Shown: positions 10,262 to 50,866 of the stretch, one piece after another
How positions within the stretch are numbered: the stretch's first letter is position 1
Layout of the letters: each line of letters opens with the position of its first letter
DNA from: Variovorax paradoxus
GTDB taxonomy: Bacteria; Pseudomonadota; Gammaproteobacteria; Burkholderiales; Burkholderiaceae_C
Reading direction: 5' to 3'
Assembly: GCA_016806145.1 (NCBI GenBank)
Contig: CP063167.1
Location: forward strand, 678,501 to 742,500
DNA: 64,000 nucleotides
Program-made: the position numbers and the translations under genes
Notes under the pieces: generated by a model
What the model was told of the DNA's origin: nothing
Databases searched by the model: none
Seen by the model: only the letters and a program-made list of their open reading frames with translations

Positions 10262-10263
10262 GC

Positions 10264-14815: not shown

Positions 14816-14890
14816 TTCGCAAGGTACGCCTCGGCAAGGCTCGGGAGGCTGCCGGCGGTCGTGACCTTCCTGCGTGGCCCGCCGGCCCCT

Positions 14891-15268: not shown

Positions 15269-15376
15269 GCCGGGCCTCCAGAAAGAGATCGATTCTTGGA
15301 GCCTGCGACGGCACGCACGTAGGACAAGCGCGTTCCTGCTCGCGAATAAGAAAGCCGAATGCGCAGGTCCCCAAGC

Positions 15377-15586: not shown

Positions 15587-15636
15587 GGTGTCTCCTGCAA
15601 AAAAAAGATGGACGAAAAGTTCTGCCGGGCAGATTC

Positions 15637-15873: not shown

Positions 15874-15907
15874 TCGGATCTCCAGGAAGTCGGGACTTGC
15901 AGCCGCG

Positions 15908-17437: not shown

Positions 17438-17447
17438 GGTCGGTTCC

Positions 17448-18707: not shown

Positions 18708-18888
18708 GAGTGGTCCCCGAAAATGATCGCCTCGGCAAGCTAGGAGGCGAGCGGGGTCCGAAGCGCACGAGCTTCACCCGAGCGGGCGTAGGACGTTCAG
18801 CCAGACAACCGGCGCATGGGGCGCGCCCGCAGAACTTTCGTTCGATCAGGCAGCGGGTTCGAGCGTCACCCGGTGAGGGCGCGCATCG

Positions 18889-36992: not shown

Positions 36993-37015
36993 GCGCAGGC
37001 CCTCAAGCCCTGCGC
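36993..37015. terminator. Possible hairpin between convergent operons
   Basis: GCGCAGG and CCTGCGC form a 7-base-pair stem with a 9-base loop in the 110-base gap between the convergent SMP-30 and GntR genes. The GntR stop codon lies in the loop. There is no T-run and the stem is short, so a terminator role is only possible. Nothing else is seen in the gap. Confidence 0.35.
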
Positions 37016-37866
37016 AACTTCATGTTGAACCTGAACTTCTCCGCCGGATAGAGGTTGACCGAGACTTCAGCCACCTGGTCCGAGGACGTGCGGTAGGTGC
37101 GGCGCACCTCCACCACGCTCGATGCGGGGTCCACATCGAGCCCCGCGGCGACTTCCGCCGGCACCGGGCGCACGCGCAGGCTCTGCTCCACGTCCACCAG
37201 CCGCTCGCCGTACATGTCCTCGATGAGCTGCCAGATGGGACCGCTGCGGCGCGGCAGGAGCCGTTCGACACCGGCGAACTCCGCGGCGACGAAGACCTCG
37301 GTCCAGCAAACCGGCGGCGTGTCCGCGGCCTCGGTGGCCTGCGCCAGTCGGAAGCCCTGCAGGCGCAGCCAGCTGCGCTTCTCCGGCAACGGCAGCTCGT
37401 CGGGCGAGACCTGGTGGCTCTCGATGACCTCGGAGCGGTCCACCACGTAGCGGCTCTCCGCCGCGTAGGCGATCAGCTCGTCGATGGACGCGACCTGGTG
37501 CACGTTGAACGGCGTGCTCGGTGGCGGCGCCATCACCGTGGTGCCCGACCCCTGGCGCGACGACACCAGGCCGTCGGCGCGCAATTGCTGCAAGGCTACG
37601 CGCACCGTGTGACGGCTCACGGCGAAGCGCTCGCACAGTTCTTCCTCGGTGGGCAGCTGCACGCCGACGCGAAAGACGCCCTTGATGATGTCCTCGCGCA
37701 GCGCCTGCACCAGCTGGCGCCACAGCGGCTCGCCGGACGTGCCGGCCAGGCGGGTGGGCTGGGGGCCGCGCTGGCCGGCACCCTGCGCCTGGGGCGACTT
37801 CTTGCGGGCGACGGCCCCTCGGGCAGGGGCGGACTTCTTCGGAGTGGGCATGCCGCGATTCTGCAT
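37003..37866 (-). CDS. GntR-family (HutC/UTRA type) transcription regulator
   Basis: A 287-residue regulator. A basic Ala/Lys/Pro-rich leader (about 1-45) precedes a GntR winged HTH (about 50-115; PLWRQLVQALREDIIKGVF, QLPTEEELCERFAVSRHTVRVALQQL). The UTRA effector domain follows (about 130-285), with the typical end PIWQLIEDMYGERLVDVEQSLRV and VVEVRRTYRTSSD. The start is uncertain: GTG 37869, ATG 37866 or ATG 37851. It is the last gene of the acyl-CoA dehydrogenase operon, 38 bases after MaoC. The TTGTACGTACAA palindromes at four promoters around it are its likely sites, which would give autoregulation. Confidence 0.9.
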   Translation of the reverse strand: MQNRGMPTPKKSAPARGAVARKKSPQAQGAGQRGPQPTRLAGTSGEPLWRQLVQALREDIIKGVFRVGVQLPTEEELCERFAVSRHTVRVALQQLRADGLVSSRQGSGTTVMAPPPSTPFNVHQVASIDELIAYAAESRYVVDRSEVIESHQVSPDELPLPEKRSWLRLQGFRLAQATEAADTPPVCWTEVFVAAEFAGVERLLPRRSGPIWQLIEDMYGERLVDVEQSLRVRPVPAEVAAGLDVDPASSVVEVRRTYRTSSDQVAEVSVNLYPAEKFRFNMKLRRA

Positions 37867-37904
37867 CACCCCCCCGCGGGCCCGAGCCCGCGCCGCCAGG
37901 GCGC

Positions 37905-38411
37905 TCAGTCGTCCAGCGCGTGGCCGCGCTTCGGCACCAGCACGCTGCGCTCGAAGCTGATCACCTCTGTGCCGTCGGCCTTGCGGCCCACGGTCCGCAC
38001 CGTCACGATGCCCTGCGTCGGCCGGCTCGCGGACTCGCGCGTGGCCAGCACGGTGGACTCGGCATAGAGCGTGTCGCCGCAGAAGACCGGCGCGGTCAGC
38101 TTGATGTCGTTCCAGCCCAGGTTGCCGATCGCCTTCTGGCTCACGTCGCTCACGCTCATGCCCACCACGATCGACAGCGTGAGGCAGCTGTTGACCAGCG
38201 CGCGTCCGAACTCCGACTTCGCCGCGTACTCATTGTCGAAGTGCAGCGGGTGGGTGTTCATGGTGAGCAGCGTGAACCAGATGTTGTCGTTCTCGGTCAC
38301 GGTGCGGCCGGGCCGGTGCTCGTACACGTGGCCCACCTCGAAGTCCTCGAAGTGGCGGCCGAAGCTCTCGCGGAAGCGGCCGGGCTGGATCTCGATGGCG
38401 GTGCGGGTCAT
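37905..38411 (-). CDS. MaoC-family enoyl-CoA hydratase/dehydratase
   Basis: A 168-residue hot-dog-fold hydratase. The catalytic Asp/His hydratase motif is seen in DNIWFTLLTMNTHPLHFDNEYA near 40-60, with EFGRALVNSCLTLSIVVGMSVSDVSQ and the C-terminal FCGDTLYAESTVL. This wording is typical of the mesaconyl/itaconyl-CoA hydratase-like branch of MaoC proteins, which adds water to a 2-enoyl-CoA. The ATG overlaps the CaiB-2 stop by four bases. The partners (CaiB, acyl-CoA dehydrogenase, and the CitE-like lyase at 44653) fit a CoA-dependent C5-dicarboxylate type route. The substrate is inferred. Confidence 0.87.
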   Translation of the reverse strand: MTRTAIEIQPGRFRESFGRHFEDFEVGHVYEHRPGRTVTENDNIWFTLLTMNTHPLHFDNEYAAKSEFGRALVNSCLTLSIVVGMSVSDVSQKAIGNLGWNDIKLTAPVFCGDTLYAESTVLATRESASRPTQGIVTVRTVGRKADGTEVISFERSVLVPKRGHALDD

Positions 38412-39529
38412 GGATGGGGTTCCTCGGAAAACAGTTCGTGGCGGTGCTGGTCGAGCGCGGGCGCATCGAGATCGATGGCCGCGGGTTCGTCCAGGAATCG
38501 GATCGGGCTGGCGACATGGGGCCGGCCCTCGGCGTCGCGCAGCACCATGCCGCGCGCAAGCAGCTGCGCATCGGCGAAGGCTTCGGGCAGGGTGTTCACC
38601 GCGCCGAAGCAGACATCGAGCGCACCCAGGCGCTGCTCCCACTCGGCGCGCGTGGCCTGCCGGAAGGCATCGGCCAGGAAGTCCATCACCGGCTGCTGGT
38701 GCGCACCCGGCCCGCGCAGCACCAGCGGTGCGAGATCGGCGCGGCCGAGCGCGCCCAGCAGCGCATGGATGAACTTCGGCTCCTGCCCGGCCAGCGCGAT
38801 GTGCCGGCCGTCCCGTGTCTCGTAGAGCCGGTAGAAGGCGCTGCCCCCGGTGGTTCGCTCCAGCTTCGGATCGGGCTGCCGTCCTTCGGCGAAGGTCGGG
38901 CCGGTGACGTTGCGCAGCGCGGCCGCCATGCAGTCGAGCATCGCGATGTCGATGCGATCGCCGCGCCCCGTGCGCTCGCGCCGCAGCAGCGCCATCAGCA
39001 CTCCCGACAGGCCCTGGAGCCCGGCGAGCAGGTCGGCCACCGGCAGGGCGGGAATCGCGGGCGTGCCGTCGGCACCGAGGCTCAGGCTCAATGCGCCGCT
39101 GAGCGCCTCCACGGCCAGGTCGTGCGCCGGTCGCGCCGCGCAGGGCCCGTCCTGGCCGAACGCGCTGATCGAGCAGTACACGAGCCGGGGGTTGCGCTCG
39201 CGCAGGGTCTCGGCGTCCATCCCCAGCCGTTGCGCGACGCCCGGACGGAAGGACTCGATGAACACATCCGCGCTGTCGGCCAGCTGCAGCAGACGCGCGC
39301 GCCCCGCTTCGGTCTTCAGGTCGAGCACCACGCTCTTCTTGCCGCGATTGAGGTTGCGGAAGAACACGGTGTGGGGACCGTCGGCCAGGCCGATGTGCCG
39401 CCCCGGGTCGCCTTCGCCGGGCTGCTCGACCTTGATCACCTCGGCGCCGTGATCCGCCATCTCCAGGCTCAGGTAGGGGCCGGGCAGGAAGTTGCTCAGG
39501 TCGACGACGCGAATGCCTGCCAGCTTCAT
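38408..39529 (-). CDS. CaiB/BaiF-family CoA-transferase (2)
   Basis: A 373-residue class III CoA-transferase. Landmarks are LAGIRVVDLSNFLPGPYLSLEMADHGAEVIKVEQP, NRGKKSVVLDLK, DVFIESFRPGVAQRLG and LVYCSISAFGQDGP. The catalytic Asp region is in ARPAHDLAVEALSG. It moves CoA from a donor acid such as succinate to the substrate acid. It overlaps its neighbours on both sides by four bases and lies next to a second, different CaiB gene. The two may form a heteromeric enzyme or act on different acids. Confidence 0.92.
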   Translation of the reverse strand: MKLAGIRVVDLSNFLPGPYLSLEMADHGAEVIKVEQPGEGDPGRHIGLADGPHTVFFRNLNRGKKSVVLDLKTEAGRARLLQLADSADVFIESFRPGVAQRLGMDAETLRERNPRLVYCSISAFGQDGPCAARPAHDLAVEALSGALSLSLGADGTPAIPALPVADLLAGLQGLSGVLMALLRRERTGRGDRIDIAMLDCMAAALRNVTGPTFAEGRQPDPKLERTTGGSAFYRLYETRDGRHIALAGQEPKFIHALLGALGRADLAPLVLRGPGAHQQPVMDFLADAFRQATRAEWEQRLGALDVCFGAVNTLPEAFADAQLLARGMVLRDAEGRPHVASPIRFLDEPAAIDLDAPALDQHRHELFSEEPHP

Positions 39530-40731
39530 GCCAGGTCCTCCTGCACGGGTTTCTCGACGGACGAGAGCACCGCCTCCGTGTCCGCGCCAAGCGCGGCGCA
39601 GGGCCGCAGCGCGGGGCGGCGACCATCGAACTTCAACGGATTGGCCAGCATCCGCAGGCGCGCCCGGGCCGGATGGTCGAGCTCGGCCAGCATCCCGCTT
39701 TCGGCGAAGAAGTCCGAATGCAGCGCCTCGTCCAGGCTGCGCACCGGCGCCACCGGCAACACGCCCTGGAGCTTTTGCAGCCAATGGGCCGTGTCGTGGG
39801 TGCGAAAGTGCGCATCGAGCATTCCGGTCAGCAGGCCGCGGTGGCGATTGCGCGATTCGGCATCGGCGAACTCCGGCATCTCGCCCAGCGCGGGCTGGCC
39901 GAGCGCGGCCACCAGGGCTTCCCAGAACTTCTGCGTCATGCACATGACGAAGATCCAGCCGTCGGCCGTCGGGAAGGTCTGCACCGGCGCGAGCGAATAG
40001 TGGCCGCTGCGAGGCTGCCGCTGCGCCACGTGGTCCTCGTTGAGCAGCCAGGTCGCCGCGTAGCCGAGCTGGTGCAGCGTGACGTCGAAGAGACTGGTGT
40101 CGACGTCGCAGCCCTGCCCCGTCTCGCGCGCCCGCAGCAAGGCGGCCAGCAGGCCGACCATCGCGGTGATCCCCGTCATGTGGTCGACGATCGAGGGCGC
40201 GCCCACGCGCGCGGGTGGCGTGTCGGGCTCGCCGGTCAGGTGCATCAGGCCGGTCTCGGCCTGCATCAGGTAGTCGTAGCCCGGCCATGCGGCCCGGCTG
40301 TTGTCGCGGCCGTAGGCGGAGATATGGGCACAGACGATGGCCGGCTTGATCAGGCCCAGCGTCTCGTGGTCCAGGCCCAGGCGCGCCGGCAGGTCGCCAC
40401 GCAGGTTGTTGAGCACGACGTCGGCATCGCGCACCAGCGCTTCGAAGGCGGCGCGGCCTTCGGGCGACTTGATGTCCAGCGCCACGCTGCGCTTGTTGCT
40501 GTTCCAGCCCTGGAAGTACTGGCTGTCGTCGGGCCCGAGCATGTAGGGGCCGGTCTGGCGCGAAGGATCGCCCCGGGTCGCGGGATTCTCGATCTTGATC
40601 ACCTCGGCACCCAGGTGCGCGAGGAACATGGTGCCGTAGGGACCCGCGCCGAATTGCTCGACCGCCAGGATCCGCACGCCGGCCAGGGGCTGGTCGGAAG
40701 GGCGCCGCGCGGGCTGAGTTCGCGCGTTCAT
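39526..40731 (-). CDS. CaiB/BaiF-family CoA-transferase (1)
   Basis: A 401-residue class III CoA-transferase. Landmarks are LAGVRILAVEQFGAGPYGTMFLAHLGAEVIKIENP, SNKRSVALDIKSPEG, DVVLNNLRGDLPARLG and VCAHISAYGRDN. WPGYDYLMQAETGLM holds the conserved Asp, and there is a C-terminal lid. It is more divergent from the 38408 copy than a recent duplicate would be. It starts 43 bases after the acyl-CoA dehydrogenase and its stop overlaps the next ATG. Confidence 0.92.
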   Translation of the reverse strand: MNARTQPARRPSDQPLAGVRILAVEQFGAGPYGTMFLAHLGAEVIKIENPATRGDPSRQTGPYMLGPDDSQYFQGWNSNKRSVALDIKSPEGRAAFEALVRDADVVLNNLRGDLPARLGLDHETLGLIKPAIVCAHISAYGRDNSRAAWPGYDYLMQAETGLMHLTGEPDTPPARVGAPSIVDHMTGITAMVGLLAALLRARETGQGCDVDTSLFDVTLHQLGYAATWLLNEDHVAQRQPRSGHYSLAPVQTFPTADGWIFVMCMTQKFWEALVAALGQPALGEMPEFADAESRNRHRGLLTGMLDAHFRTHDTAHWLQKLQGVLPVAPVRSLDEALHSDFFAESGMLAELDHPARARLRMLANPLKFDGRRPALRPCAALGADTEAVLSSVEKPVQEDLA

Positions 40732-40774: not shown

Positions 40775-41953
40775 TCATGCGACCGGGTTCCTCTTGACCC
40801 ACTGCTTCGCGATGATGATGCGCTGCATCTCGTTCGTGCCTTCGCCGATGCAGGTCAGCGGCGCATCGCGGTACAGGCGCTCGATGTCGTACTCCTTCGA
40901 GTAGCCGTAAGCGCCGTGGATGCGCATCGACTCGATGCTGTTCTCCAGCGCGGCCTCGGACGAGAAGTACTTCGCCATGCCCGCTTCCATGTCGCAGCGC
41001 TCGCCCCGGTCGAAGCTCGCCGCGGCATCGAGCGTGAGCAGCCGCGCCGCGCGCGCGCGGGTGGCCATCTCGCCGAGCTTGAGCGCGATCGCCTGGTGCT
41101 CGGCGATCGGCTTGCCGAAGGTCTTGCGGACCTGCGCGTACTCGGTCGCCAGGCGCAAGGCACCCTCGGCGATGCCCACGCCGCGCGAGGCGACGTTGAT
41201 GCGCCCGAGCTCGAGCCCGCCGGTGGCCTGGTAGAAGCCCTGGCCTTCGACACCCCCGATCAGATGCTCGGCCGACAGGCGGAAACCATCGGCCACCAGT
41301 TCGCCGCTGTCGATCGACTTGTAGCCCAGCTTGGGCAGCTTGCGGCTGCTGAAGAAGCCCTCGCCCTTCGGCGCGATGAACAGGCTCATGCCCGCATGGC
41401 GCGGCTGCGACTGCGGATCGGTCTTCACGAGCAGCGCGAAGCAGGAGCCCTCGACCGAGTTCGTGATCCAGGTCTTGGTGCCGTTGATGAGGTAGTGGTC
41501 GCCCTCGCGGCGCGCGGTCATGCGGATGCCCTGCAGGTCGGTGCCGGCGTCGGGCTCGGTCAGCGCCAGCCCGCCGCGCACTTCGCCGGAGGCCAGTTTC
41601 GGCAGCCACAGGGCCTTCTGCTGCGGCGTGCCGAACTTCTCGATCGCCAGCGCCAGCATCAGGTGCGAGTTGAAGATGCCGGTGACCGCCATCCACACCG
41701 ACGAGATGCGCATCACGATCTTCGCGTAGGTGCTCGCGGGCAGGCCCAGTCCGCCGTATTCGGTCGAGACGGTGGCGCCGAACAGGCCGAGCGCCTTCAT
41801 CTCCTCGACGATGCGATGCGGATAGGTGTCGGCGTGATCGTGTTCGCGCACGACTTCGGGCGTGAGCGAGCGCTCCACCCAGCGATCGATGGCGGCAAGA
41901 AGCTCGGCCTCTTCGGCCGGGTCGATGGTGCGCAGGTTGCGGTGCAGGTCCAT
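40775..41953 (-). CDS. Acyl-CoA dehydrogenase
   Basis: A 392-residue FAD enzyme. The N-terminal helical domain is about 1-120. FAD-binding loops follow, LALTEPDAGTDLQG and TWITNSVEG. The C-terminal helical domain has FGKPIAEHQAIALKLGEMATRARAARLL, SIESMRIHGAYGYSKEYDIERLYRDAP and the conserved EGTNEMQRIIIAK near 373. It oxidises an acyl-CoA to the 2-enoyl-CoA and passes electrons to ETF. It is first in an operon that has its own near-consensus promoter and a GntR-type palindrome 18 bases before the ATG. Confidence 0.94.
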   Translation of the reverse strand: MDLHRNLRTIDPAEEAELLAAIDRWVERSLTPEVVREHDHADTYPHRIVEEMKALGLFGATVSTEYGGLGLPASTYAKIVMRISSVWMAVTGIFNSHLMLALAIEKFGTPQQKALWLPKLASGEVRGGLALTEPDAGTDLQGIRMTARREGDHYLINGTKTWITNSVEGSCFALLVKTDPQSQPRHAGMSLFIAPKGEGFFSSRKLPKLGYKSIDSGELVADGFRLSAEHLIGGVEGQGFYQATGGLELGRINVASRGVGIAEGALRLATEYAQVRKTFGKPIAEHQAIALKLGEMATRARAARLLTLDAAASFDRGERCDMEAGMAKYFSSEAALENSIESMRIHGAYGYSKEYDIERLYRDAPLTCIGEGTNEMQRIIIAKQWVKRNPVA

Positions 41954-41970
41954 TCGGTCTCTTTCTGAAT

Positions 41971-41986
41971 ATGTACGTACAACTAT
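41971..41986. promoter_or_regulatory. GntR-type operator O1 (acyl-CoA dehydrogenase promoter)
   Basis: ATGTACGTACAACTAT contains the palindrome TGTACGTACA. It overlaps the predicted -10 box and transcription start of the minus-strand promoter at 41982-42011, the position expected for a repressor. The same core recurs at 42105, 45500, 45579 and 45601. Confidence 0.75.
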
Positions 41987-42011
41987 ATTTGGATCTTCAC
42001 CCTCCTGTCAA
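41982..42011 (-). promoter_or_regulatory. Sigma-70 promoter of the acyl-CoA dehydrogenase operon
   Basis: On the minus strand TTGACA (42011-42006) is followed after 18 bases by TATAGT (41987-41982): a perfect -35 box and a one-mismatch -10 box. This is rare in such GC-rich DNA. The predicted start, near 41975, falls inside operator O1 and about 20 bases before the ATG. Confidence 0.75.
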
Positions 42012-42104
42012 CGAATCGCGTGCATTCGATTCCATTGTTTCCCTCATTGAAATCCGTACGGGAAAACCCGAAAGCGCACCCAGGGCATGATCGCTAGTAT
42101 TCAT

Positions 42105-42120
42105 TGTTGTACGTACAACA
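42105..42120. promoter_or_regulatory. GntR-type operator O2 (cupin promoter)
   Basis: TGTTGTACGTACAACA is a perfect 16-base palindrome 28 bases before the cupin ATG. TAGTAT, a possible -10 box, ends five bases before it, so the site would cover the transcription start. It is the best-formed copy of the motif in the window and was taken as the reference. Confidence 0.78.
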
Positions 42121-42147
42121 TGAAGCAATGACCCCGAAAGGATTCCG

Positions 42148-42675
42148 ATGAACGACCTGGCCGCCATCCACGCCTCCGCCAGCGACGACGCAGCCCGCCT
42201 GCGCTTCTCGATGCGCAACCTGCCGCTGCTCGAAGGCGGCGCCACCATGGAGCTTCTCGGCCTGTCGCCGATGCTGTGGGCCCACTCGAAGGTCTATTCG
42301 TCCGGCGGGGAGAACGCGCTCCACAGCCACGACATCGAGGACCATGTCTTCCTGATCCTGCAGGGCGAAGCGACCTTCAACTTCGGCGACGGCAGCACCA
42401 CGCAGGTCAGGGCCTTCGAAGGCGTGACCGTGCCGCGCGGCACGCGCTACTCGTTCCAGGCGAACGAGGCCGGCGGCAATCTGGTGATGTTCCGGGTCGG
42501 CGCGGCGCTGGTGAAGGACTCGTCCGAGCTCGACCCCAAGTTCGCCATTCCGCGCGAGGCGCTGCAAAGCCGCCGCGATCCTTCGGGCGGCTATGCCGCC
42601 GGCGATGCGCGCAAGAACGGCGCCGCCTCGCAGCCCACGGTCTTCAAGGCGGGCGCCTTCTTCGCGCCCGACTGA
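42148..42675 (+). CDS. Cupin-domain protein
   Basis: A 175-residue single-domain cupin. Motif 1 is seen as GGENALHSHDIEDHVFLILQGEATFNF, whose HxH and E residues would bind a metal. Motif 2 is EGVTVPRGTRYSF. The C-terminal 40 residues are polar. Such small cupins serve as isomerases, dioxygenases or ligand sensors; the sequence does not say which. It is first in an operon with a Bug receptor and an amidohydrolase, under the GntR-type palindrome O2. Confidence 0.85.
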   Translation: MNDLAAIHASASDDAARLRFSMRNLPLLEGGATMELLGLSPMLWAHSKVYSSGGENALHSHDIEDHVFLILQGEATFNFGDGSTTQVRAFEGVTVPRGTRYSFQANEAGGNLVMFRVGAALVKDSSELDPKFAIPREALQSRRDPSGGYAAGDARKNGAASQPTVFKAGAFFAPD

Positions 42676-42719
42676 AGCGTCGCGGCACCGCACACCCAGC
42701 AACCACCGGAGACATCCTC

Positions 42720-43694
42720 ATGCAACGCAGAACCTTGCTGCGCGGCGCGGCCGCGGCCGTCGCGGCGCAGGCCTCGCAGTCCTTCGCGCAATCCTCGGCG
42801 CAGGGCTATCCCAACCACGCCGTCACCCTCATCGTTCCCTACGCCGCCGGCGGCAACGCCGACCTGACGGCGCGCCTGTTCGGCGATGCGCTCGGCAAGG
42901 CGCTGGGTCAACCCGTGGTGGTGGACAACCGCGCGGGCGGGGGCGGCGCGATCGGCGCCAACGCGGTCGTCAACGCGCGCCCCGACGGCTACACCCTGCT
43001 GTTCTCCGCGCCCAGCGTGTTCTCGGTCACGCCGCACCTGGTGAAGGTCAACTACAGCACCGCGAGCGTGCGTCCCGTGTGCCTGGTCAGCAAGACGCCG
43101 CTGGTGCTGGTGGTCAAGAAGGGCAGCCGCTACAAGTCGCTGGCCGATGTGGTCACGGCCGCCAAGGCCGCGCCGGCAGGCGTCGCCATGGGCTACAGCG
43201 GCCTGGGCACGCCCAACCACCTGGCGATGCTGAACCTCGAGGCCGTGGCCCAGGTGCGCTTCAACGGCATTCCCTACAAGGGCTCGGGCCCGATGCTGCA
43301 GGACATGCTGGCCGGCCAGATCGAGGTCGGCGCGGACCAGATCTCGACCTCCAGGCCCTACATCGAGTCGGGCGACCTGATCCCCCTGGCGGTGTTCGGA
43401 TCGAAGCTGGAGGCCCTGCCCGAAGTGCCCTCCGTGTCCACGCTCGGCAAGGAGCCCTTCGACGTCACGACCTATCTCGGCATCGCCGCGCCCAGCGCGA
43501 CGCCCGATGCGCTGGTGGCCGCACTGCAGAAGGCCGCCGGCACGGCGCTGCAGGACGCCCGCTTCACCGCCGGCATGGCCAAGCTCGGCGCGCTGGTGCA
43601 AGGCGGCAGCGGTGCCGACTACGAGCGCCTGATGCGCACCGAGAACGAGTTCATGGCGCAGATGGTGGCTTCGGGCCGGGTCAAGCAGGAGTGA
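42720..43694 (+). CDS. Bug-family periplasmic solute receptor 5
   Basis: A 324-residue receptor. The signal MQRRTLLRGAAAAVAAQASQ ends near SFA before QSSAQGYPNHAVTLIVPYAAGGNAD. Hallmarks are VVVDNRAGGGGAIGANA, RPDGYTLLFSAPS, GIPYKGSGPMLQDMLAGQIEV and IPLAVFGSKLEALPEVPS. It is placed between the cupin and the third amidohydrolase, 44 bases after the former and seven before the latter. Confidence 0.92.
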   Translation: MQRRTLLRGAAAAVAAQASQSFAQSSAQGYPNHAVTLIVPYAAGGNADLTARLFGDALGKALGQPVVVDNRAGGGGAIGANAVVNARPDGYTLLFSAPSVFSVTPHLVKVNYSTASVRPVCLVSKTPLVLVVKKGSRYKSLADVVTAAKAAPAGVAMGYSGLGTPNHLAMLNLEAVAQVRFNGIPYKGSGPMLQDMLAGQIEVGADQISTSRPYIESGDLIPLAVFGSKLEALPEVPSVSTLGKEPFDVTTYLGIAAPSATPDALVAALQKAAGTALQDARFTAGMAKLGALVQGGSGADYERLMRTENEFMAQMVASGRVKQE

Positions 43695-43701
43695 TGCACG
43701 C

Positions 43702-44622
43702 ATGAATGCAGCCCACGCCCCGGCGCCGCATGCCGGACAACCCGGCCATGCGGCGCGCGCCCCCGACGACATCGACCCGCCACCGGACCCGGCGCCCCAT
43801 CCGCCGCGCGGTTTTCGGCTGCCGGCTGGCGCGGTCGACACCCATGCCCACGTGATCGGCCGCGCGTACATCGCCGGTCGCAGCTACACGCCGCGGCCCG
43901 CCCCCGCATCCGACTATCTGCGCATGCTCGACGCCACCGGCATGCAGCACGGCGTGCTGGTCCAGGTCAGCGTGCACGGCAGCGACAACACCCTGCTGCT
44001 GCAGGCCTTGAGCGAGCAGCCCGGGCGCCTGCGCGGCATCGCGGTCGCGCCGCACGACCTCGCGCACGCCGAGTGGGAGACGCTCGCGGCGGCCGGCGTG
44101 GTGGGCCTGCGGTTGAACACCACCACCGGCGGCGGCGTGGGCGTGGCGGCGCTGGCCGAATACGAGGCGGTGTGCCTCGAGTTCGGCTGGCACCTGCAGT
44201 TCCTGGTCGAGTCGCGCCGCCTGCCCGAACTGGCGCCCGGCATCTCGCGCCTGCGCGTGCCGGCCGTGTTCGACCACATGGGCTACGTGCACGCCGGCCA
44301 GGACCGTGGCGTCGAAGGACACACGCTGCGCGCGCTGGTGCGCGACGGCGCCTGGGTCAAGCTGTCGGGCGCGTTCCGCAATTCCGAGGCCGGGCCGCCC
44401 TACGACGACACCCTCGAGTTCACCGCGGCCCTGGCCGAAGCCGGGCCGCAGCGCTGCGTCTGGGGATCGGACTGGCCGCATGTGAGTTTCCGCGGGCGCA
44501 TGCCCAACCCGGGCGACCTGCTCGACGTGCTCGGGCGCGCCGTGCCCGACGCGCAACGGCGCGACGCCATCCTCGCGACCAATGCGCAGCGGCTCTACGG
44601 CTTCACGCCATCCGCGGCGTAG
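43702..44622 (+). CDS. Amidohydrolase-family lactonase, LigI-like (3)
   Basis: A 306-residue hydrolase with a Pro/Ala-rich N-terminal tail (about 1-40). The TIM barrel has VDTHAHVIG near 46, VSVHGSDNTLLL, VVGLRLNTTTG, VFDHMGYVH, WVKLSGAFRNSE and CVWGSDWPHVSF. The first metal motif reads HAH rather than HxHL/HMHI as in the other two paralogs. The substrate is unknown; the third Bug-plus-amidohydrolase pairing in the window strengthens the link between the two families. Confidence 0.87.
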   Translation: MNAAHAPAPHAGQPGHAARAPDDIDPPPDPAPHPPRGFRLPAGAVDTHAHVIGRAYIAGRSYTPRPAPASDYLRMLDATGMQHGVLVQVSVHGSDNTLLLQALSEQPGRLRGIAVAPHDLAHAEWETLAAAGVVGLRLNTTTGGGVGVAALAEYEAVCLEFGWHLQFLVESRRLPELAPGISRLRVPAVFDHMGYVHAGQDRGVEGHTLRALVRDGAWVKLSGAFRNSEAGPPYDDTLEFTAALAEAGPQRCVWGSDWPHVSFRGRMPNPGDLLDVLGRAVPDAQRRDAILATNAQRLYGFTPSAA

Positions 44623-44625
44623 CAA

Positions 44626-44648
44626 GGCGCGCGGAGCTGCGCCGCGCC
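44626..44648. terminator. Possible hairpin between convergent genes
   Basis: GGCGCG and CGCGCC form a 6-base-pair GC-only stem with an 11-base loop in the 30-base gap between the convergent amidohydrolase and CitE-like genes. No T-run follows, so it is a weak terminator candidate. Confidence 0.3.
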
Positions 44649-44652
44649 CCGC

Positions 44653-45498
44653 TCATGCGCGGGCCCTGGACAGCAGACTTCGCGCGCGCTCGATGACGGG
44701 GCGATCCACCATCTCGTTGCGATAGCGGATCGCTCCCGCGCCACCGCCGGCCGCCTCCACCGCCTGCATCACGCCGTGCGCCCATTCGAGGGCGGCCGCA
44801 TCCGGGGCAAAGGCTTCGCGCACCGGCGCAATCTGCGCCGGGTGGATGCACAGCTTGGCGCCGAAGCCCAACCGCCGCGCGCGCACACCGTCCGCATGGA
44901 TGCGGGCCAGGTCGCTCGTCGACAGGGTCACGCCATCGACGGGGGCGCCGATGCCGGCCAGGCGCGAGGCCAGGACGAGCTCCGAACGCGCGAACAGCAA
45001 GGCCTCGTCATCGCCCTCGATGCCGAGGTCCTGCTGGAAGTCCACGGAGCCGAACACCAATCGCAGCACGCCCGGCGCCCGCGCCAGTTCACGCGCGGCG
45101 GCAAGGCCAAGCGCCGACTCGACGATCGGCAACAGCGCTGCGTCGTGCGGCATCGCCGCGCGCACGCGCGAGAGGTCTTGCGCGCTGCACGCCTTCGGCA
45201 GCATCGCCGCGGCCACGCGGGGCAGCGACAGCAGCGCCAGGTCCTGCTCGAAATGCGGCGTGTCGGCCGCGTTGATGCGCACGCAGACGCGCGCGCCCGG
45301 CGCGCCCAGCGCCTCGCGCAACTGCTCGCGCGCGCTGCGCTTCGCGACTTCGGCCACGGCGTCCTCGAGGTCGACGATCACCGCGTCGGCCCCGCTGGCA
45401 AGCGCCTTCGCGAGGCGCTCGGGGCGATCCGCCGGCACGAACAGCCAGGCGCAGGCGGCCGCGAAGGAAGCATTCGGGTGTTCTTGGTCCATCTTCAT
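44653..45498 (-). CDS. HpcH/HpaI (CitE-like) aldolase/CoA-ester lyase
   Basis: A 281-residue TIM-barrel enzyme. Motifs are AWLFVPADRPERLAKALASGADAVIVDLEDAV (metal-site Glu/Asp), VCVRINAADT, AAMLPKACSAQDL, LLPIVESALGL, LRLVFGSVDFQQDLGI and GFGAKLCIHPAQIAPV. These are CitE-subfamily signatures, whose members include citramalyl-CoA and malyl-CoA lyases. Cleavage of a 3-hydroxyacyl-CoA would complete the CaiB, dehydrogenase and MaoC series encoded nearby. The operator palindrome lies one base before the ATG, so the message would be nearly leaderless. A second ATG is six bases further in. Confidence 0.88.
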   Translation of the reverse strand: MKMDQEHPNASFAAACAWLFVPADRPERLAKALASGADAVIVDLEDAVAEVAKRSAREQLREALGAPGARVCVRINAADTPHFEQDLALLSLPRVAAAMLPKACSAQDLSRVRAAMPHDAALLPIVESALGLAAARELARAPGVLRLVFGSVDFQQDLGIEGDDEALLFARSELVLASRLAGIGAPVDGVTLSTSDLARIHADGVRARRLGFGAKLCIHPAQIAPVREAFAPDAAALEWAHGVMQAVEAAGGGAGAIRYRNEMVDRPVIERARSLLSRARA

Positions 45499-45499
45499 A

Positions 45500-45511
45500 T
45501 TGTACGTACAA
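45500..45511. promoter_or_regulatory. GntR-type operator O3 (CitE-like gene)
   Basis: TTGTACGTACAA is a perfect 12-base palindrome directly upstream of the CitE-like ATG at 45498. On the minus strand CATAGT, a possible -10 box, immediately precedes it (as TATAGT precedes O1), so the motif again covers the expected transcription start. No good -35 box was found. Confidence 0.75.
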
Positions 45512-45567
45512 CTATGAGAATCCATGAATTGGTGCTCTTGCTCTTCAGGGATTTCCACTAGCAGTGG

Positions 45568-45596
45568 TTGACTTCTGGTTGTCCGTACACGATGAT
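45568..45596 (+). promoter_or_regulatory. Tentative promoter of the eight-gene operon
   Basis: TTGACT (45568-45573) is a good -35 box. GATGAT seventeen bases later is a weak -10 box. Operator-like sequences lie in the spacer and directly downstream. The call rests mainly on the -35 box and the operators. Confidence 0.45.
45579..45590. promoter_or_regulatory. GntR-type operator O4, imperfect
   Basis: TTGTCCGTACAC differs from the TTGTACGTACAA palindrome at two positions and lies between the tentative -35 and -10 boxes of the eight-gene operon. Alone it would be weak; its spacing to O5 (about two helical turns) supports it. Confidence 0.55.
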
Positions 45597-45600
45597 TTAT

Positions 45601-45624
45601 TTGTTCGTACAACTTTGTACGACC
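45601..45624. promoter_or_regulatory. GntR-type operator O5 with adjacent half-site
   Basis: TTGTTCGTACAA (45601-45612) has a single mismatch to the palindrome and is followed after two bases by the half-site TTGTACGACC (45615-45624). Together with O4 this promoter has a cluster of sites, unlike the single sites at the other promoters. That may give tighter or cooperative control. Confidence 0.65.
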
Positions 45625-45681
45625 ACCGGATCGCGCGGCACCCGCGCAGACCGCCCCCACACCGCCGCCCCGGAGCCACCC

Positions 45682-46662
45682 ATGCCTTTCCTGCAACCCT
45701 CTCGCCGAAGCGCGCTGCTGTTCGCGCTGTGCATCGCCTGCGGTCCGTGGCATGGCCTCGCCGCGGCCGAGCCGGCCTTTCCCTCGAAGCCGATCCGCGT
45801 GATCGTGGCCTTCGGCCCCGGCAGCGGCGGCGACAACCTGGCACGGCTGCTGGGCCAGTACCTGCAGCCCGAGCTCGACACGCCGGTGGTGATCGAGAAC
45901 AAGGTGGGTGCGCTGGGCCAGATCGCCACGACCGCGCTCGCACGGGCCACGCCCGACGGCTACACGCTAGGCATGGGCAGCTCCTCCACGCATTCGACCG
46001 CGCCCTTTCTCACGCGCAACCTGCCCTACGACCCGGTACGGGACTTCACCACCGTCGGCGGACTCAACAACTACACCTTCGTGCTGCTGGTGAATGCGAG
46101 CGCCCCCGATAGCGACGTGCCGGGGCTGGTGGCACGGCTGCGAGCGAAGGGCAGCGCGTTCTATGGCTACGGCAACGCCTCCGGCCGCGTGGGCGGCGCG
46201 CATTTCCGCCGCGTCGCGGAATTCGCCGCGACCGAAGTGGCCTACAAGAGTTCGCCCGAGGCCCTCACCGACCTGGCGGCGGGACGGGTCGACTTCCTCT
46301 TCACCGACTGGGGCTCCGCGCGGCCCTTCGTCGAATCGGGACGGCTGCGCGCCCTCGGCGTGATGGCGAACGCACGCTCGCCGATCCTGCCCGAGCTGCC
46401 CGCGGTCGGCGAGCGCTATCCGGGCTTCGACTTCGACAACTGGGGCGGGCTGCTCGCCCCCGCGGGCACGCCGGCGGCGGTCGTCGTCACCCTCAACACC
46501 GCCTTGCTGCGCGTGCTCGGCAAGCCCGAGGTGCGGCAGCGCATGGCGGCCATGGGCCTCGAGGTGCGCCCCGGCAGCCCGGCCGAACTCGCCGCGCTGG
46601 TCCAGGCACAGCAGCGCGCCTGGGGCGCGGCCATCCAGGCCGCCGGCCTCCAGCCCGAATGA
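45682..46662 (+). CDS. Bug-family periplasmic solute receptor 6
   Basis: A 326-residue receptor. The signal ends near HGLAAA before EPAFPSKPIRVIVAFGPGSGGDN. Hallmarks are VVIENKVGALGQIA, TPDGYTLGMGSSSTHS, VAYKSSPEALTDLAAGRVDF and LRALGVMANARSPILPELP. It opens the eight-gene operon under operators O4/O5. DNxxAR replaces the more usual TDxxAR after the glycine loop, so ligand contacts may differ from the other Bugs in the window. Confidence 0.92.
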   Translation: MPFLQPSRRSALLFALCIACGPWHGLAAAEPAFPSKPIRVIVAFGPGSGGDNLARLLGQYLQPELDTPVVIENKVGALGQIATTALARATPDGYTLGMGSSSTHSTAPFLTRNLPYDPVRDFTTVGGLNNYTFVLLVNASAPDSDVPGLVARLRAKGSAFYGYGNASGRVGGAHFRRVAEFAATEVAYKSSPEALTDLAAGRVDFLFTDWGSARPFVESGRLRALGVMANARSPILPELPAVGERYPGFDFDNWGGLLAPAGTPAAVVVTLNTALLRVLGKPEVRQRMAAMGLEVRPGSPAELAALVQAQQRAWGAAIQAAGLQPE

Positions 46663-46709
46663 ACGGGCCGCCCCCGAACCCTTTCAACCATCACGCCGAA
46701 AGAAGCTTC

Positions 46710-48197
46710 ATGCAGACCGAGACACCGCAGTTCCAGAACCACATCGCCGGCCGCACCGAACCCGCGCGCGCCGGACGCAGCTTCACCAGCACGAACCCCG
46801 CCACCGGCGCTCCCTGGGGCCGTTTCGCCGACTCGGACGCCGACGACGTGGATCGGGCGGTGCGCGCCGCGCAAGCGGCGCTCGACGGCGAATGGGGCCG
46901 GCTGTCGAACACCCGGCGCGGCCGCCTCCTGATGGCCTGGGGCGAGCGCATCGCCGCCCACAGCGAGGTCATCGCGCGCCTGGAATCGGCCCAGAACGGC
47001 AAGCTGCTGGCCGAGATGAAGGCGCAGGCCACCGTGGTGCGCGAGTGGCTCTACTACTTCGGCGGGCTGGCCGACAAGATCGAGGGCCGCGTGATCCCGC
47101 TCGAGCGCCAGAGCGTGCTGAACTACACGCTGCGGGAACCGCTCGGCGTGATCGGCGTGATCGTGCCCTGGAACTCGCCGACCTTCCTCACCATCATGAG
47201 CTGCGCGCCGGCGCTGGCGGCCGGCAACACGGTGGTGCTCAAGCCTTCCGAAGTCACCTCGGCCTCGGCCTTCGAACTGGTGCGCCTCGCCGAGGAGGCG
47301 GGCATCCCGCCGGGAACCATCAACGTCGTGACCGGCGCGCGCGCGGCCGGCGAAGCGCTGGTCGACCATCCGGGCGTGGCCAAGATCTGCTTCACCGGCA
47401 GCGATGGCGCGGGCCGTGCGATCGCCGCGCGCGCCGGGGCACGGCTCGCGAGCTGCACGCTCGAGCTCGGGGGCAAGAGTCCGAACATCGTGTTCGACGA
47501 CGCGCCCGTCGACAACGCCGTGGTGGGCCTGCTGTCGGGCATCTTCGCCGCCGCCGGCCAGACCTGCATCGCCGGTTCGCGCGCGTACATCCACGAGCGC
47601 ATCTACGACCAGGTGGTGGAGCGGCTGGTCCAGCGCGCCCGCGCGATCCGCCTGGGCGACCCGCTCTCCGCCGACACCCAGATGGGGCCCGCGGCCACGG
47701 CGGCGCAGCTCGACAAGAACCTGTCGCTGGTCGCCAAGGCCGTGTCCGCCGGTGGCGAAGTGCTGCAGGGCGGGCGCCGCGCCACGGTGCCGGGCCTGGA
47801 GCAGGGCTACTTCTTCGAGCCGACGATCCTGCATCGGCTCGGCCGCGACAACCCGATCCTCGAGGAGGAGGTGTTCGGCCCGGTGCTCGCGGTGCTCCCC
47901 TTCTCCGACGACGACGAGGTGCTGGCCCTGGCCAACGGCAACCGCTTCGGCCTCGCCGCGGGCGTGTGGACGCGCGACCTGCGCCGCGCGCATTCGATGG
48001 CGCGCAGGCTGCAGGCCGGCACGGTGTGGATCAACACCTACCGGGCGATGGCCTTCAACTCGCCCTTCGGCGGCTACAAGGACAGCGGCATCGGGCGCGT
48101 CAACGGCATGGAGTCGGTCGAGCAGTTCCTGCAGACGAAGAGCGTCTGGTGCGAGACCAGCGACGAGATCCAGGACCCCTTCGTGCTGAAGGTCTGA
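46710..48197 (+). CDS. NAD(P)-dependent aldehyde dehydrogenase
   Basis: A 495-residue ALDH-superfamily enzyme. PWNSPTFLTIMSCAPALAAGNTVVLKPSE and FTGSDGAG form the cofactor site. The general base Glu is near 252 (LELGGKSPN) and the nucleophile Cys near 289 (GQTCIAGSR); EEVFGPVLAVL follows. It oxidises an aldehyde to the acid. It is followed two bases after its stop by a TPP enzyme, so it probably takes the aldehyde made by that decarboxylase, as MdlD does in the mandelate pathway. The actual aldehyde is unknown. Confidence 0.94.
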   Translation: MQTETPQFQNHIAGRTEPARAGRSFTSTNPATGAPWGRFADSDADDVDRAVRAAQAALDGEWGRLSNTRRGRLLMAWGERIAAHSEVIARLESAQNGKLLAEMKAQATVVREWLYYFGGLADKIEGRVIPLERQSVLNYTLREPLGVIGVIVPWNSPTFLTIMSCAPALAAGNTVVLKPSEVTSASAFELVRLAEEAGIPPGTINVVTGARAAGEALVDHPGVAKICFTGSDGAGRAIAARAGARLASCTLELGGKSPNIVFDDAPVDNAVVGLLSGIFAAAGQTCIAGSRAYIHERIYDQVVERLVQRARAIRLGDPLSADTQMGPAATAAQLDKNLSLVAKAVSAGGEVLQGGRRATVPGLEQGYFFEPTILHRLGRDNPILEEEVFGPVLAVLPFSDDDEVLALANGNRFGLAAGVWTRDLRRAHSMARRLQAGTVWINTYRAMAFNSPFGGYKDSGIGRVNGMESVEQFLQTKSVWCETSDEIQDPFVLKV

Positions 48198-48199
48198 GC

Positions 48200-49828
48200 A
48201 TGACGCAGCAATCCATTGCGGAACTCGTCGCGCGCGGCTGCGCGGCCCATGGCGTGAAACGCGCGTTCGGCGTGCCGGGCGGCGGCAGCTCGCTCGACCT
48301 GATCGAGGCCTTCGACCGCCACGGCATCGACTTCGTGCTGTGCCGCACCGAAACCGGTGCCGCGCTGATGGCCGCGGCCGATGCGGAACTGCGCCATGGC
48401 TTCGGCGTCGCCGTCGCGACGCAGGGCCCGGGCGCCGCCAGTGCGATGAACGGACTGGCCCATGCGAGCCTGGACCGGGCACCGGTGCTCTTCATCAGCG
48501 ATGGCTGGACCGACGCGCAACGCGCGCTCGATGCGCACCAGGTGTTCGACCAGCACGCGATGTCCGCGCCGGTCGTCAAGGCCGCGGCACGGCTCGAGTC
48601 CGAGGCTCCGGCGCTCGAGTTCGACAGGCTGGTCGACGCGATGCTGGCCGCGCCCTGGGGACCGGCGCACCTCGTGTTGACGGGCGCCAACGCGAAACGG
48701 CGCGTGGTCATCGATGCGACCGCGCCGCCGCGGCCGGCGCCGGCAAGCGCGCCGCAGCCACAAACACGGTTGCAGGCCGACGCCACGGCCCTGCTCGCGC
48801 GGGCGAAGCGACCGGTCGTCCTGCTGGGCCTGGAAGCGCGCGAGCCCCGAACCCTGCAGCAGGTGGTGCGGCTCGTGCAGCAACTGCATTGCCCGGTGCT
48901 GACCACCTACAAGGCCAAGGGACTGTTCAGCGACGACGCCGAATGGACGGTCGGCCACGTCACGGGCGGCGCCGCCGAACGAGCCACGCTCGATGCGGCG
49001 GACCTCGTGCTCTCGATCGGGCTCGACCCGGTCGAGCTGATCGGCCCGGTGCGCTGCGGCGACACGCCGGTGCTCGAGCTCGCCCTGTTCACGCGGCCGG
49101 TGCAGCCGGTGCGGGCCGCGGCGAGCCTGCTGGGCCCGCTCGCGCCCGCGCTGGCCTCCCTGCTGCCCGAATGCCGCCGCTCGCAGTGGAGCTCCGAGGA
49201 GATAGCCGCGCTGCGCCTCGGAATGCGCGAGCGCCTCGGCTGCGCGGGCGGCGAGGACGGTGCGGCGCTGTCGCCGCAGGCCGTGGTGGAGGTCGCGCTC
49301 GACGCGGCCGCGTCGCCGCGGCCCGCGATCACGGTCGACGCCGGTGCCCACATGTTCTCCGCCATGGCGCTCTGGCGCGCCGATGTGCCGGGCGGCGCGC
49401 TGATCTCGAACGGCCTGGCGACCATGGGCTTCGCCCTGCCCGCCGCCATCGCGCGCGCGCTGCACGATCCCGCCCGGCCGACGCTCGCGTTCACCGGCGA
49501 TGGCGGCCTGATGATGTGCGCGGGCGAACTGGCCACCGCGGCGCAGCAACGCGCGCGGCTGTGCGTGGTGGTCTTCAACGACGGCGCCCTGTCCCTGATC
49601 GCGCTCAAGCAGCGCAACCGGGGCATGGCGCCCGCCGGCGTCGGCTGGTCCCGCGCCGACTTCGCCGACGTCGCCCGTGGCTTCGGCCTGCGCGCCTTCA
49701 GCGTGCACGACGAGGCCGGCTACCGCCAGGCGCTGCGCGCCGCGCTCGACCACGACGGTCCGAGCCTGATCGACGTGCGCGTCGATCCCACCGGCTACCA
49801 GGCGCAGGCGCGCGCGCTGCGCGGCTGA
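48200..49828 (+). CDS. TPP-dependent 2-oxoacid decarboxylase-like enzyme
   Basis: A 542-residue TPP enzyme. The activating Glu51 is in CRTETGAAL, and the N-terminal loop is FGVPGGGSSLDL. The cofactor motif is GDGGLMMCAGEL at 433 with Asn-Asp in VVFNDGALSLI. The flanking ALDH and FMN oxidase genes make a benzoylformate-decarboxylase-type role (2-oxo acid to aldehyde) more likely than acetolactate synthesis. It is the same length as the TPP enzyme at 797, but the two differ clearly in sequence and are not a recent duplication. Confidence 0.88.
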   Translation: MTQQSIAELVARGCAAHGVKRAFGVPGGGSSLDLIEAFDRHGIDFVLCRTETGAALMAAADAELRHGFGVAVATQGPGAASAMNGLAHASLDRAPVLFISDGWTDAQRALDAHQVFDQHAMSAPVVKAAARLESEAPALEFDRLVDAMLAAPWGPAHLVLTGANAKRRVVIDATAPPRPAPASAPQPQTRLQADATALLARAKRPVVLLGLEAREPRTLQQVVRLVQQLHCPVLTTYKAKGLFSDDAEWTVGHVTGGAAERATLDAADLVLSIGLDPVELIGPVRCGDTPVLELALFTRPVQPVRAAASLLGPLAPALASLLPECRRSQWSSEEIAALRLGMRERLGCAGGEDGAALSPQAVVEVALDAAASPRPAITVDAGAHMFSAMALWRADVPGGALISNGLATMGFALPAAIARALHDPARPTLAFTGDGGLMMCAGELATAAQQRARLCVVVFNDGALSLIALKQRNRGMAPAGVGWSRADFADVARGFGLRAFSVHDEAGYRQALRAALDHDGPSLIDVRVDPTGYQAQARALRG

Positions 49829-49874
49829 ACCGCGCCCTTCTTTTCCCCTTCGACAAAAACCCCTGGAGACATCC

Positions 49875-50861
49875 ATGCCCAAGTGCTTCAAGAACCTGCT
49901 GGCCGGCCTGATCGGCCTCGGCCTCCTGCTGTCCGCGCTCGTCGCGGGCGCGCAAACGTCCGCGCCGAACTGGCCGACGCGGCCGATCCGCTGGATCGTG
50001 CCCTTCGCCGCCGGCGGCACGGCCGACGCGACCGCGCGCCACATCGCGCAGAAGCTCACCGAACGCTGGGGCCAGCAGGTGATGGTGGACAACAAGCCCG
50101 GCGCCAACACGATCATCGCGGCGGTGGAGGCCGCGCGCGCCGCGCCGGACGGCTACACCCTGTTCCAGCCGATCAACTCCACGCTCACCGTCAACCAGTT
50201 CGCCGTCACGAGGCTGCCGTACGACGCGCTCAAGGACTTCACCCCGATCGCCGTCATCGCCTCGGTGCCGCTGATCTTCGTGGCCAACGACACGATGCCG
50301 GCGCACACCATGCAGGAGTTCATCGCGCTGGCGAAGAAGTCCCCCGAGGCCTTCACGATGGGCGGTGGCGTGGTCGGCGTGCAGCTGGCCGCCGAGCGCT
50401 TCATGCGCGACGCGGGCGTGAAGACGCGGTACGTGGCCTACAAGAGCGGCGCCGACGTGACCAAGGGGCTGCTGTCGGGCGAGATCCATTCGGGCCTCGA
50501 TGGCGTGCCGGCCTATCCGCCGCTGTTCAAGGCGGGCAAGCTGCGCCCGCTGGCGACCAACAGCGCCCGGCGCATCGCCTCGCTGCCCGACGTTCCCACG
50601 CTGGGCGAACTCGGGCTGAAGAATTCGGAGGCCCCGATGTGGCACGCCCTCATGGGCCCGGCCGGCCTGCCCGCGCCGATCCGGCAGAAGATCTCGGACG
50701 ACCTCAAGGAAGTGCTCGCCATGCCCGACCTGCGCGACAAGATGGGCGCGCTCGGCCTGGAAGCGAACTGGATCGGCGCCGACGACTTCGTGAAGCTCAT
50801 CAAGTCCGAATCGGCCAACATGGGTCCGCTGGTGAAGGACCTCGGCATCCGGATGGAGTGA
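49875..50861 (+). CDS. Bug-family periplasmic solute receptor 7
   Basis: A 328-residue receptor with signal MPKCFKNLLAGLIGLGLLLSALVAGA. The mature start is NWPTRPIRWIVPFAAGGTAD. Hallmarks are MVDNKPGANTIIA, APDGYTLFQPINS, VAYKSGADVTKGLLSGEIHSG and LRPLATNSARRIASLPDVP. It is the second Bug in the same operon, 46 bases after the TPP gene and five before an SMP-30 lactonase gene. Confidence 0.93.
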   Translation: MPKCFKNLLAGLIGLGLLLSALVAGAQTSAPNWPTRPIRWIVPFAAGGTADATARHIAQKLTERWGQQVMVDNKPGANTIIAAVEAARAAPDGYTLFQPINSTLTVNQFAVTRLPYDALKDFTPIAVIASVPLIFVANDTMPAHTMQEFIALAKKSPEAFTMGGGVVGVQLAAERFMRDAGVKTRYVAYKSGADVTKGLLSGEIHSGLDGVPAYPPLFKAGKLRPLATNSARRIASLPDVPTLGELGLKNSEAPMWHALMGPAGLPAPIRQKISDDLKEVLAMPDLRDKMGALGLEANWIGADDFVKLIKSESANMGPLVKDLGIRME

Positions 50862-50866
50862 GCACC

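Follow-up and report, generated by a model that had tools for sequence, protein, structure and literature searches.

Gene Organization of the Locus

The window, i.e., the whole stretch of 64,000 nucleotides analysed here from contig CP063167.1 of the soil bacterium Variovorax paradoxus (positions 678,501 to 742,500), contains a cluster of catabolic genes linked to coenzyme A (CoA) and a set of short palindromes with the core TTGTACGTACAA, which the cluster's own repressor gene, encoding a GntR/UTRA protein of the HutC type, very probably reads at all four promoters. Seventeen genes, delimited by hmmscan and by checks of the start codons, are arranged in four units, and within each unit they overlap or lie 2-46 bp apart.

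The first unit, acd-caiB-caiB-maoC-gntR, runs on the reverse strand from 41953 down to 37003. It comprises an acyl-CoA dehydrogenase gene (acd, 40775..41953, assigned by Pfam), the genes of two CaiB-type (family III) CoA transferases (39526..40731 and 38408..39529; Pfam CoA_transf_3, 2e-111 and 1.7e-104, respectively), a MaoC-type hydratase gene (37905..38411) whose nearest NCBIfam model is RipB/Ich (231.7 bits, below the cut-off of 340) and, at its end, the regulator gene (37003..37869; 288 amino acids; Pfam GntR, 6.6e-22, and UTRA, 1.2e-09). The cupin unit, on the forward strand (42148-44622), is formed by a cupin gene (42148..42675; Pfam Cupin_2), the gene of Bug/TctC periplasmic binding protein 1 (42720..43694; Pfam TctC, 1.9e-51) and an amidohydrolase gene (43702..44622; Pfam Amidohydro_2, 1.5e-42). 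A CitE-like acyl-CoA lyase gene makes up a unit of its own on the reverse strand (44653..45498, with the start at 45498 or 45492), and its nearest NCBIfam model is RipC/Ccl (147.9 bits, below the cut-off of 375). The eight-gene unit on the forward strand (45682-55005) begins with bug2, encoding Bug/TctC binding protein 2 (45682..46662; Pfam TctC), and continues with an aldehyde dehydrogenase (46659..48197; Pfam Aldedh, 4e-162), a thiamine-diphosphate enzyme (48200..49828) whose best solved relatives are catabolic acetolactate synthases, Bug/TctC binding protein 3 (49875..50861; Pfam TctC, 2.6e-59), an SMP-30/gluconolactonase-like protein (50867..51811; Pfam SGL, 3.5e-42), a member of the flavin mononucleotide (FMN)-dependent 2-hydroxy acid dehydrogenase family (51808..53022; Pfam FMN_dh, 9.7e-118), a member of the HpcH/HpaI aldolase family (53012..53737; Pfam, 7e-19) and, at the operon end, a CoA transferase of the acetyl-CoA hydrolase/transferase family (53734..55005; Pfam AcetylCoA_hyd_C, 1.6e-48). 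An FCD-type GntR gene (56650-57375) lies just outside, 1.6 kb past the eight-gene operon.

Putative Operator Sites in the Window and in the Genome

The sites, to which no strand is assigned, lie close to the starts of the four units. The acd operator (41971..41982, one mismatch) has the core TGTACGTACA at 41972-41981 and overlaps both the -10 end and the predicted transcription start. The cupin operator (42105..42120) is a perfect 16-bp palindrome around TTGTACGTACAA (42107-42118, no mismatch), and the citE operator (45500..45511) is likewise perfect; only 1 or 7 bases separate it from the start codon, so that it would be a start-site operator. Ahead of bug2, one operator with two mismatches occupies the promoter spacer (45579..45590), another with one mismatch, reading TTGTTCGTACAA, is located at the predicted start of the operon (45601..45612), and a degenerate half-site with three mismatches (45615..45626) is weak alone. 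Since no window match at up to three mismatches is found beyond 45626, the eight-gene unit would depend on the sites at 45500-45626.

The earlier note had described three perfect copies of the core, two imperfect copies and a half-site, all within two divergent intergenic regions and in front of four units, the first of which ends with a HutC-type GntR gene. The pattern scan of the window recovers this set of sites, the layout of the 17 genes places the palindromes before the four units, and the Pfam GntR and UTRA matches identify the regulator as stated. As to the location, TTGTACGTACAA at up to three mismatches has seven matches in the window, six of which fall in the two divergent regions (41971-42118 and 45500-45626), the exception being a site with three mismatches at 35226, away from both. 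Shuffles gave a mean of 2.82 matches (standard deviation 1.60), and 2 of 100 reached seven.

The check proposed in the same note, a genome search at one mismatch, was carried out on the 9,439,028 bases of the three contigs, with the reversed pattern as control. Exactly four sites were found, all four in the two divergent intergenic regions, versus two sites for the reversed pattern in 9.44 Mb. At up to two mismatches there are 21 sites, five of them at the locus, versus 44 for the control, and the remaining 16 are scattered, none less than 10 kb from another. The loose motif is thus clustered at the locus without enrichment in the genome as a whole, so that the argument is built on clustering and conservation and not on total counts.

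Conservation in Related Loci

The comparison covered six loci, each containing a relative of the regulator; the regulator gene was the query, and the motif was no search criterion. Four orthologues with 63-73% identity come from Variovorax sp. Sphag1AA (L035), Bordetella petrii MY10 (L036), an Alcaligenaceae bacterium (L037) and Bordetella genomosp. 7 (L038); a fifth (G785, 72%) was obtained from the family search, and a sixth relative, 40% identical, is carried by plasmid pUSP2 of Aminobacter sp. MSH1 (L054). The motif at up to one mismatch is present in all six related loci, as is acd (79.5-92% identical by tblastn), and many of the window enzymes are shared in a changed order. L035 retains the arrangement of the window, with two divergent regions of two sites each. 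In the window, L035 and G785 the regulator gene closes the acd operon, and it faces a site-bearing region in the other four, namely cupin in L036 and L038, where the sites lie between the two facing genes, bug2 in L037 and caiB in L054. Sites are found upstream of acd in all six betaproteobacterial loci (the window, L035, L036, L037, L038, and G785), upstream of cupin in the five loci that have this gene (the window, L035, L036, L038, and G785) and upstream of bug2 or aldh in the window, L035, L036, and L037. The sites stay with the same promoters despite the changes in gene order.

This retention was quantified with zones defined by rule as up to 250 bp upstream of orthologous genes having 60 bp or more of free space, which cover 5331 of 133975 bp (4%). 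Across the six loci, 10/10 sites at up to one mismatch and 23/27 at up to two fall inside the zones, and zones picked by hand after the sites had been seen gave the same counts (10/10 and 23/27). None of 119 control palindromes made from the same half-site letters had a zone match at one mismatch, and at two mismatches their mean was 0.24 and their maximum 3. In a survey of the genus, the regulator was detected at E ≤ 1e-60 in 2 of 101 genomes, and the counts of TTGTNCGNACAA are highest in precisely these two (4 and 6, versus 0-3 in the other 99); three of the four sites in the genome of the window and three of the six in G354 are inside the locus, the clustering in the other genomes of the genus being judged among the matches listed. 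Moreover, five loci (the window, L035, L036, L037, and L038) have sites paired at a distance of 97-101 bp, which corresponds to about nine and a half turns. These pairs may simply reflect one site for each divergent promoter, and on account of this and of the spacing no claim of looping is made.

The pUSP2 plasmid is typed as conjugative, and its positions 6153-20147 hold a related module of acd, CaiB, MaoC, aldehyde dehydrogenase and lyase genes, with acd 79.5% identical to that of the window, an IS3 transposase gene beside the module, an IS5 one inside it and TTGTTCGTACAA between caiB and gntR. This module seems to travel between classes.

Promoter Geometry

A scan of 41900-45750 for sigma-70-like promoters returned two sites, both touching operators. 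The acd promoter (41982..42011, reverse strand; TTGACA, 18 bp, TATAGT; 11/12) ends at the operator 41971-41982. In the promoter of the bug2 operon (45568..45596, forward strand; TTGACT, 17 bp, GATGAT; 9/12) the spacer holds the site 45579-45590, and the site 45601-45612 lies directly downstream. In all six betaproteobacterial acd promoters TTGAC starts 28-29 bp ahead of the operator, and a -10-like hexamer (TATAGT, AATACT or CATACT, by eye) shares its last T with it. The 60-bp stretches upstream of acd, compared in register, are identical at only 13-28 of 60 positions, so that the -35 box has been retained against divergence; for its position, the probability under mononucleotide shuffling is 0.001-0.003 in each case. 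The operator hence overlaps the core promoter at the six acd promoters as well as at that of bug2, and the acd layout is that of a repressor blocking polymerase. If transcription of citE also starts within the operator, as proposed at acd, its mRNA would be nearly leaderless (window positions 45492-45511).

The Regulator and Its Probable DNA-Reading Residues

The regulator consists of an N-terminal GntR winged helix-turn-helix domain (Pfam PF00392, 77.4 bits, cut-off 27) and a C-terminal UTRA effector domain with the chorismate-lyase-like fold (Pfam PF07702, 38.5 bits, cut-off 23.8, profile positions 43-141 of 141). Its structure model, obtained with 32 sequences (predicted local distance difference test, pLDDT, 81.2; predicted template modelling score, pTM, 0.60), resembles YvoA/NagR and DasR with a whole-chain template modelling (TM) score of about 0.5, a low value that is probably due to domain orientation in the model. 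For the effector domain, the Foldseek TMt values are 0.75-0.76 with DasR, 0.73-0.74 with PhnF of M. smegmatis, 0.78 with HutC of Pseudomonas (2pkh) and 0.67 with PhnF 2fa1, and Arg174, Trp189 and Arg257 of this domain are invariant in 32/32 homologues.

The helix-turn-helix (HTH) domain aligns without gaps with the AraR domain solved with DNA (4egy). The residues of AraR that contact bases are Arg-63, His-64, Gln-83 and Gly-84 (Table 1 of PMC4494728), and these four tabulated residues are identical in the regulator, where they are Arg86, His87, Gln106 and Gly107. In NagR, Arg38 reads a G at -5 (PMC4333415); the regulator differs in having Glu76 at this position, which is never Arg in the 32 aligned homologues (18 E, 8 G, 4 D, 2 L), and its operators have T at -5, not G, in line with Glu76. 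HutC proteins mostly possess Met at HTH position 39 and show a non-significant preference for an A/T centre (PMC4494728), and the regulator has His at this position (25/32 homologues) together with a CG operator centre. These agreements between residues and operator were noted once the motif was already known.

Proposed Mechanism and Alternative Explanations

From these data, we consider it highly likely that the palindromes are operators of the GntR/UTRA repressor (37003-37869), which would block four promoters, including that of its own gene, until a pathway intermediate releases them together. A dimer of the regulator would bind TTGTACGTACAA in the -10/start region of the four promoters and keep RNA polymerase from the acd, cupin, citE and eight-gene units; with gntR last in the first unit, the regulator would also repress itself. 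The UTRA domain would presumably bind a pathway intermediate, either an acid or a CoA ester, and the effector-bound protein would then release all four units at once. The earlier proposal that this regulator reads the palindrome and controls the four units gains support, at the level of sequence, from the confinement of the sites, their retention in six loci, the residue match with AraR and the overlap with the -10 box. Direct binding, repression in vivo, a joint response of the 17 genes and the nature of the inducer are what we infer from it.

A palindrome may be read by another protein, and the UTRA gene would in this case be a passenger, with the binder being, for example, the FCD-type GntR protein encoded at 56650-57375 or a distant TetR or LacI regulator. 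The FCD gene is indeed only 1.6 kb past the operon, and other palindrome-binding families could in principle read the site. However, none of the six related stretches contains an orthologue of the FCD protein, whose sole matches there are the HTH of the UTRA gene, and as a candidate binder this protein was rejected on this basis; the GT-N4-AC spacing suits HutC (PMC4494728), and more distant UTRA homologues have WTGTNCGNACAW upstream of their own genes. A different binder is accordingly given a very small probability, bearing in mind that the UTRA gene is present in all six loci because it was used as query. It is somewhat less improbable, yet still unlikely, that the regulator activates or acts dually rather than simply repressing. 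Some GntR proteins are activators, and two or three sites are present in several promoter regions, among them the pairs 97-101 bp apart in five loci; against this, in 6/6 betaproteobacterial acd promoters, which have a near-consensus -35 box, the operator lies across the -10 end and the probable start point, where a bound protein would block polymerase. Finally, the palindromes might be chance or structural features of the DNA, such as an attenuator or a repeat element. Short palindromes do arise by chance, the window enrichment is modest at up to three mismatches (7 versus 2.8 expected) and genomic sites with two mismatches are fewer than those of the reversed control, but the genome-wide confinement at one mismatch and the persistence of the sites before the same genes across six loci, compared with the 119 control palindromes, leave this explanation next to no likelihood, and a chance origin was rejected on the two grounds.

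Several points weigh against the regulator as the reader of the palindrome. The first sites had already been seen when the motif and the rule for the zones were chosen, 4/27 sites with two mismatches in the related loci lie outside the zones, and at two mismatches the motif is rarer than the reversed control in six of six genomes (that of the window and five others). The operators of L036-L038 are partly degenerate, with 2-3 mismatches, and the acd unit of L054 has no site at up to two mismatches but only one with three. The scan of 41900-45750 yielded no consensus promoter for cupin or citE. No site was found at the regulator gene of the homologues with 41-45% identity in G022, G253, and G255, nor at that of a Sphingobium plasmid. 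Furthermore, the string SRHTVR is present in many more distant homologues too and His87 is kept in 25/32 aligned homologues; the residue match alone is weak because SRHTVR is so widespread.

The Wider Regulator Family

A search for more distant relatives listed 44 regulator matches besides the window gene, 29 of them with a locus and 28-45% identical (tblastn). In 13/29 of these distant loci WTGTNCGNACAW occurs within 300 bp upstream of the regulator match, which is the highest value of 360 permuted patterns, though nine of the 13 loci belong to a single group with paired sites and cannot count as independent; the density is 22 sites in 8.7 kb upstream versus 4 in 100 kb of the rest. In that group (L010, L013, L015, L017, L018, L019, L021, L022, and L024) two ATGTTCGAACAT-like sites, 24-27 bp apart, precede the UTRA regulator's own gene and are likely an autoregulatory pair.

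Sites with one mismatch elsewhere in the related genomes, among the matches listed, include two in B. petrii, of which one precedes another UTRA gene and one a CaiB gene. In the Alcaligenaceae genome, one such site lies between a UTRA gene and a BKACE domain and a second, apparently unrelated, is inside a LysR-type gene. The B. petrii contig (L055) carries two ATGTACGTACAA sites, one on each strand (8103-8114 and 11228-11239); one precedes the CaiB gene, the other is located 111 bp ahead of a second UTRA/GntR gene (29% identical), and an HMGL-type lyase gene lies between them. ATGTACGTACAA is one mismatch from the regulon site, and this would be a paralogous regulon with a nearly identical operator. 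In G022 (L048), two operator-like sites 105 bp apart (3886-4002), about 6 kb from a UTRA gene with 41-43% identity, precede an open reading frame at 4101, the start of which resembles a secreted binding protein by eye only.

Tentatively, and as a view that may well fail, a large proteobacterial UTRA/GntR clade, at least some members of which would govern acid catabolism of the CaiB/Bug type, might share the operator code WTGT-N-CG-N-ACAW, having converged with Bacillus AraR in its DNA-reading residues (the Arg-His of the recognition helix and the Gln-Gly of the wing) and varying mainly in the base beside the central CG, which is A here and T or C in others. As this base varies among members, paralogues in one genome could overlap, as in the case of the B. 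petrii sites. The idea that the base beside the centre is dictated solely by a His of the recognition helix was considered and rejected, since L013 and L022 have His yet T/C there. If the shared code holds true, the regulon would be one node among cross-reading switches of acid catabolism on movable islands.

Comparison With Known Systems

The pathway served by the 17 genes would shorten a lactone or a 2-hydroxy acid to a branched dicarboxylic acid. The possible early steps are lactone opening, 2-hydroxy acid oxidation, decarboxylation and aldehyde oxidation, and these might be followed by CoA transfer, dehydrogenation, hydration and lyase cleavage of the branched dicarboxylyl-CoA. The nearest described cluster with an acyl-CoA dehydrogenase, as far as it is presented in PMC12290011, is the methylsuccinate/itaconate cluster of Cupriavidus necator, and the genes of the itaconate/methylsuccinate clusters of C. 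necator and Pseudomonas aeruginosa (ict, ich, ccl, mcd, mmgE) likewise provide a set of CoA transferase, hydratase, citramalyl-CoA lyase and acyl-CoA dehydrogenase (PMC12290011). Unlike these, the locus has two CaiB genes and no MmgE/PrpD gene among its 17, and it possesses in addition the FMN dehydrogenase, the thiamine-diphosphate enzyme, the aldehyde dehydrogenase, the SMP-30-like protein and the amidohydrolase. Canonical itaconate degradation was rejected: MaoC reaches 231.7-232.5 bits with RipB (NF038241) and CitE 147.9 bits with RipC (NF038242), short of the cut-offs of 340 and 375, and none of the 10 RipB matches in the genome, of which MaoC is still the best, is above the cut-off. Among the open-access papers listed for GntR/CaiB/Bug or itaconate/methylsuccinate regulons, none describes this system, judging by titles and abstracts. 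A specific candidate operator is thus proposed for a regulator of the class that stands beside islands of Bug and CaiB genes, tying 17 genes into one regulon; a compound that lifts binding to TTGTACGTACAA would be the inducer, and in this way the substrate could be found.

AraR of Bacillus subtilis senses through a LacI-type, sugar-binding C-terminal domain. The sensor here is instead a UTRA domain, the host belongs to the Pseudomonadota and not to the Bacillota, and the regulon concerns CoA-linked acid catabolism and not arabinose, so that the regulator would read DNA like AraR without being an AraR. The AraR box is At(T/A)tGTaCGTAcaa(A/T)T, and the ORA1 box, AATTGTTCGTACAAAT, contains TTGTTCGTACAA (PMC4218819), so that the operator core TTGTACGTACAA is equal in the two systems and the ORA1 core letters are those of the window site at 45601. 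A putative araD operator of Geobacillus is printed as ATTGTACGTACAA (PMC5289569). Other literature matches to the motif letters include an actinobacterial LexA motif (PMC2248561) and a primer (PMC9239209), and the rest concern, judging by their titles, subjects outside the bacteria. The two regulators also share the four tabulated base-contacting residues, several operators in a promoter region and a repressed catabolic regulon, with repression being proposed here (PMC4218819; PMC4494728). The likeness is limited to the DNA-binding domain and its site and is not one of membership in the AraR subfamily.

With the HutC subfamily (NagR/YvoA, DasR, HutC) the regulator shares the winged helix-turn-helix joined to UTRA, the fold match and the GT-N4-AC palindrome. 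In most members GT and AC are 4 nucleotides apart (PMC4494728), as in the sites of the locus, which read TTGT-ACGT-ACAA. The local catabolic regulon, in which promoters diverge and every operon has a site nearby, is also comparable to the divergons with separate double sites described for the subfamily (PMC4494728). The subfamily consensus is NyGTMTAKACNy, with exceptions admitted and not as a strict criterion (PMC4494728); the centre here is CG instead of TA, and the sites depart from GTMTAKAC at this point. The supplementary motif tables of that work may already include a CG-centred HutC motif from this clade. The sequence comparison gives a well-founded case for what would be a new regulon; its operator deviates from the HutC consensus in the centre and equals that of AraR, and the locus provides a natural case in which the reading of the central bases of HutC-type operators can be tested.

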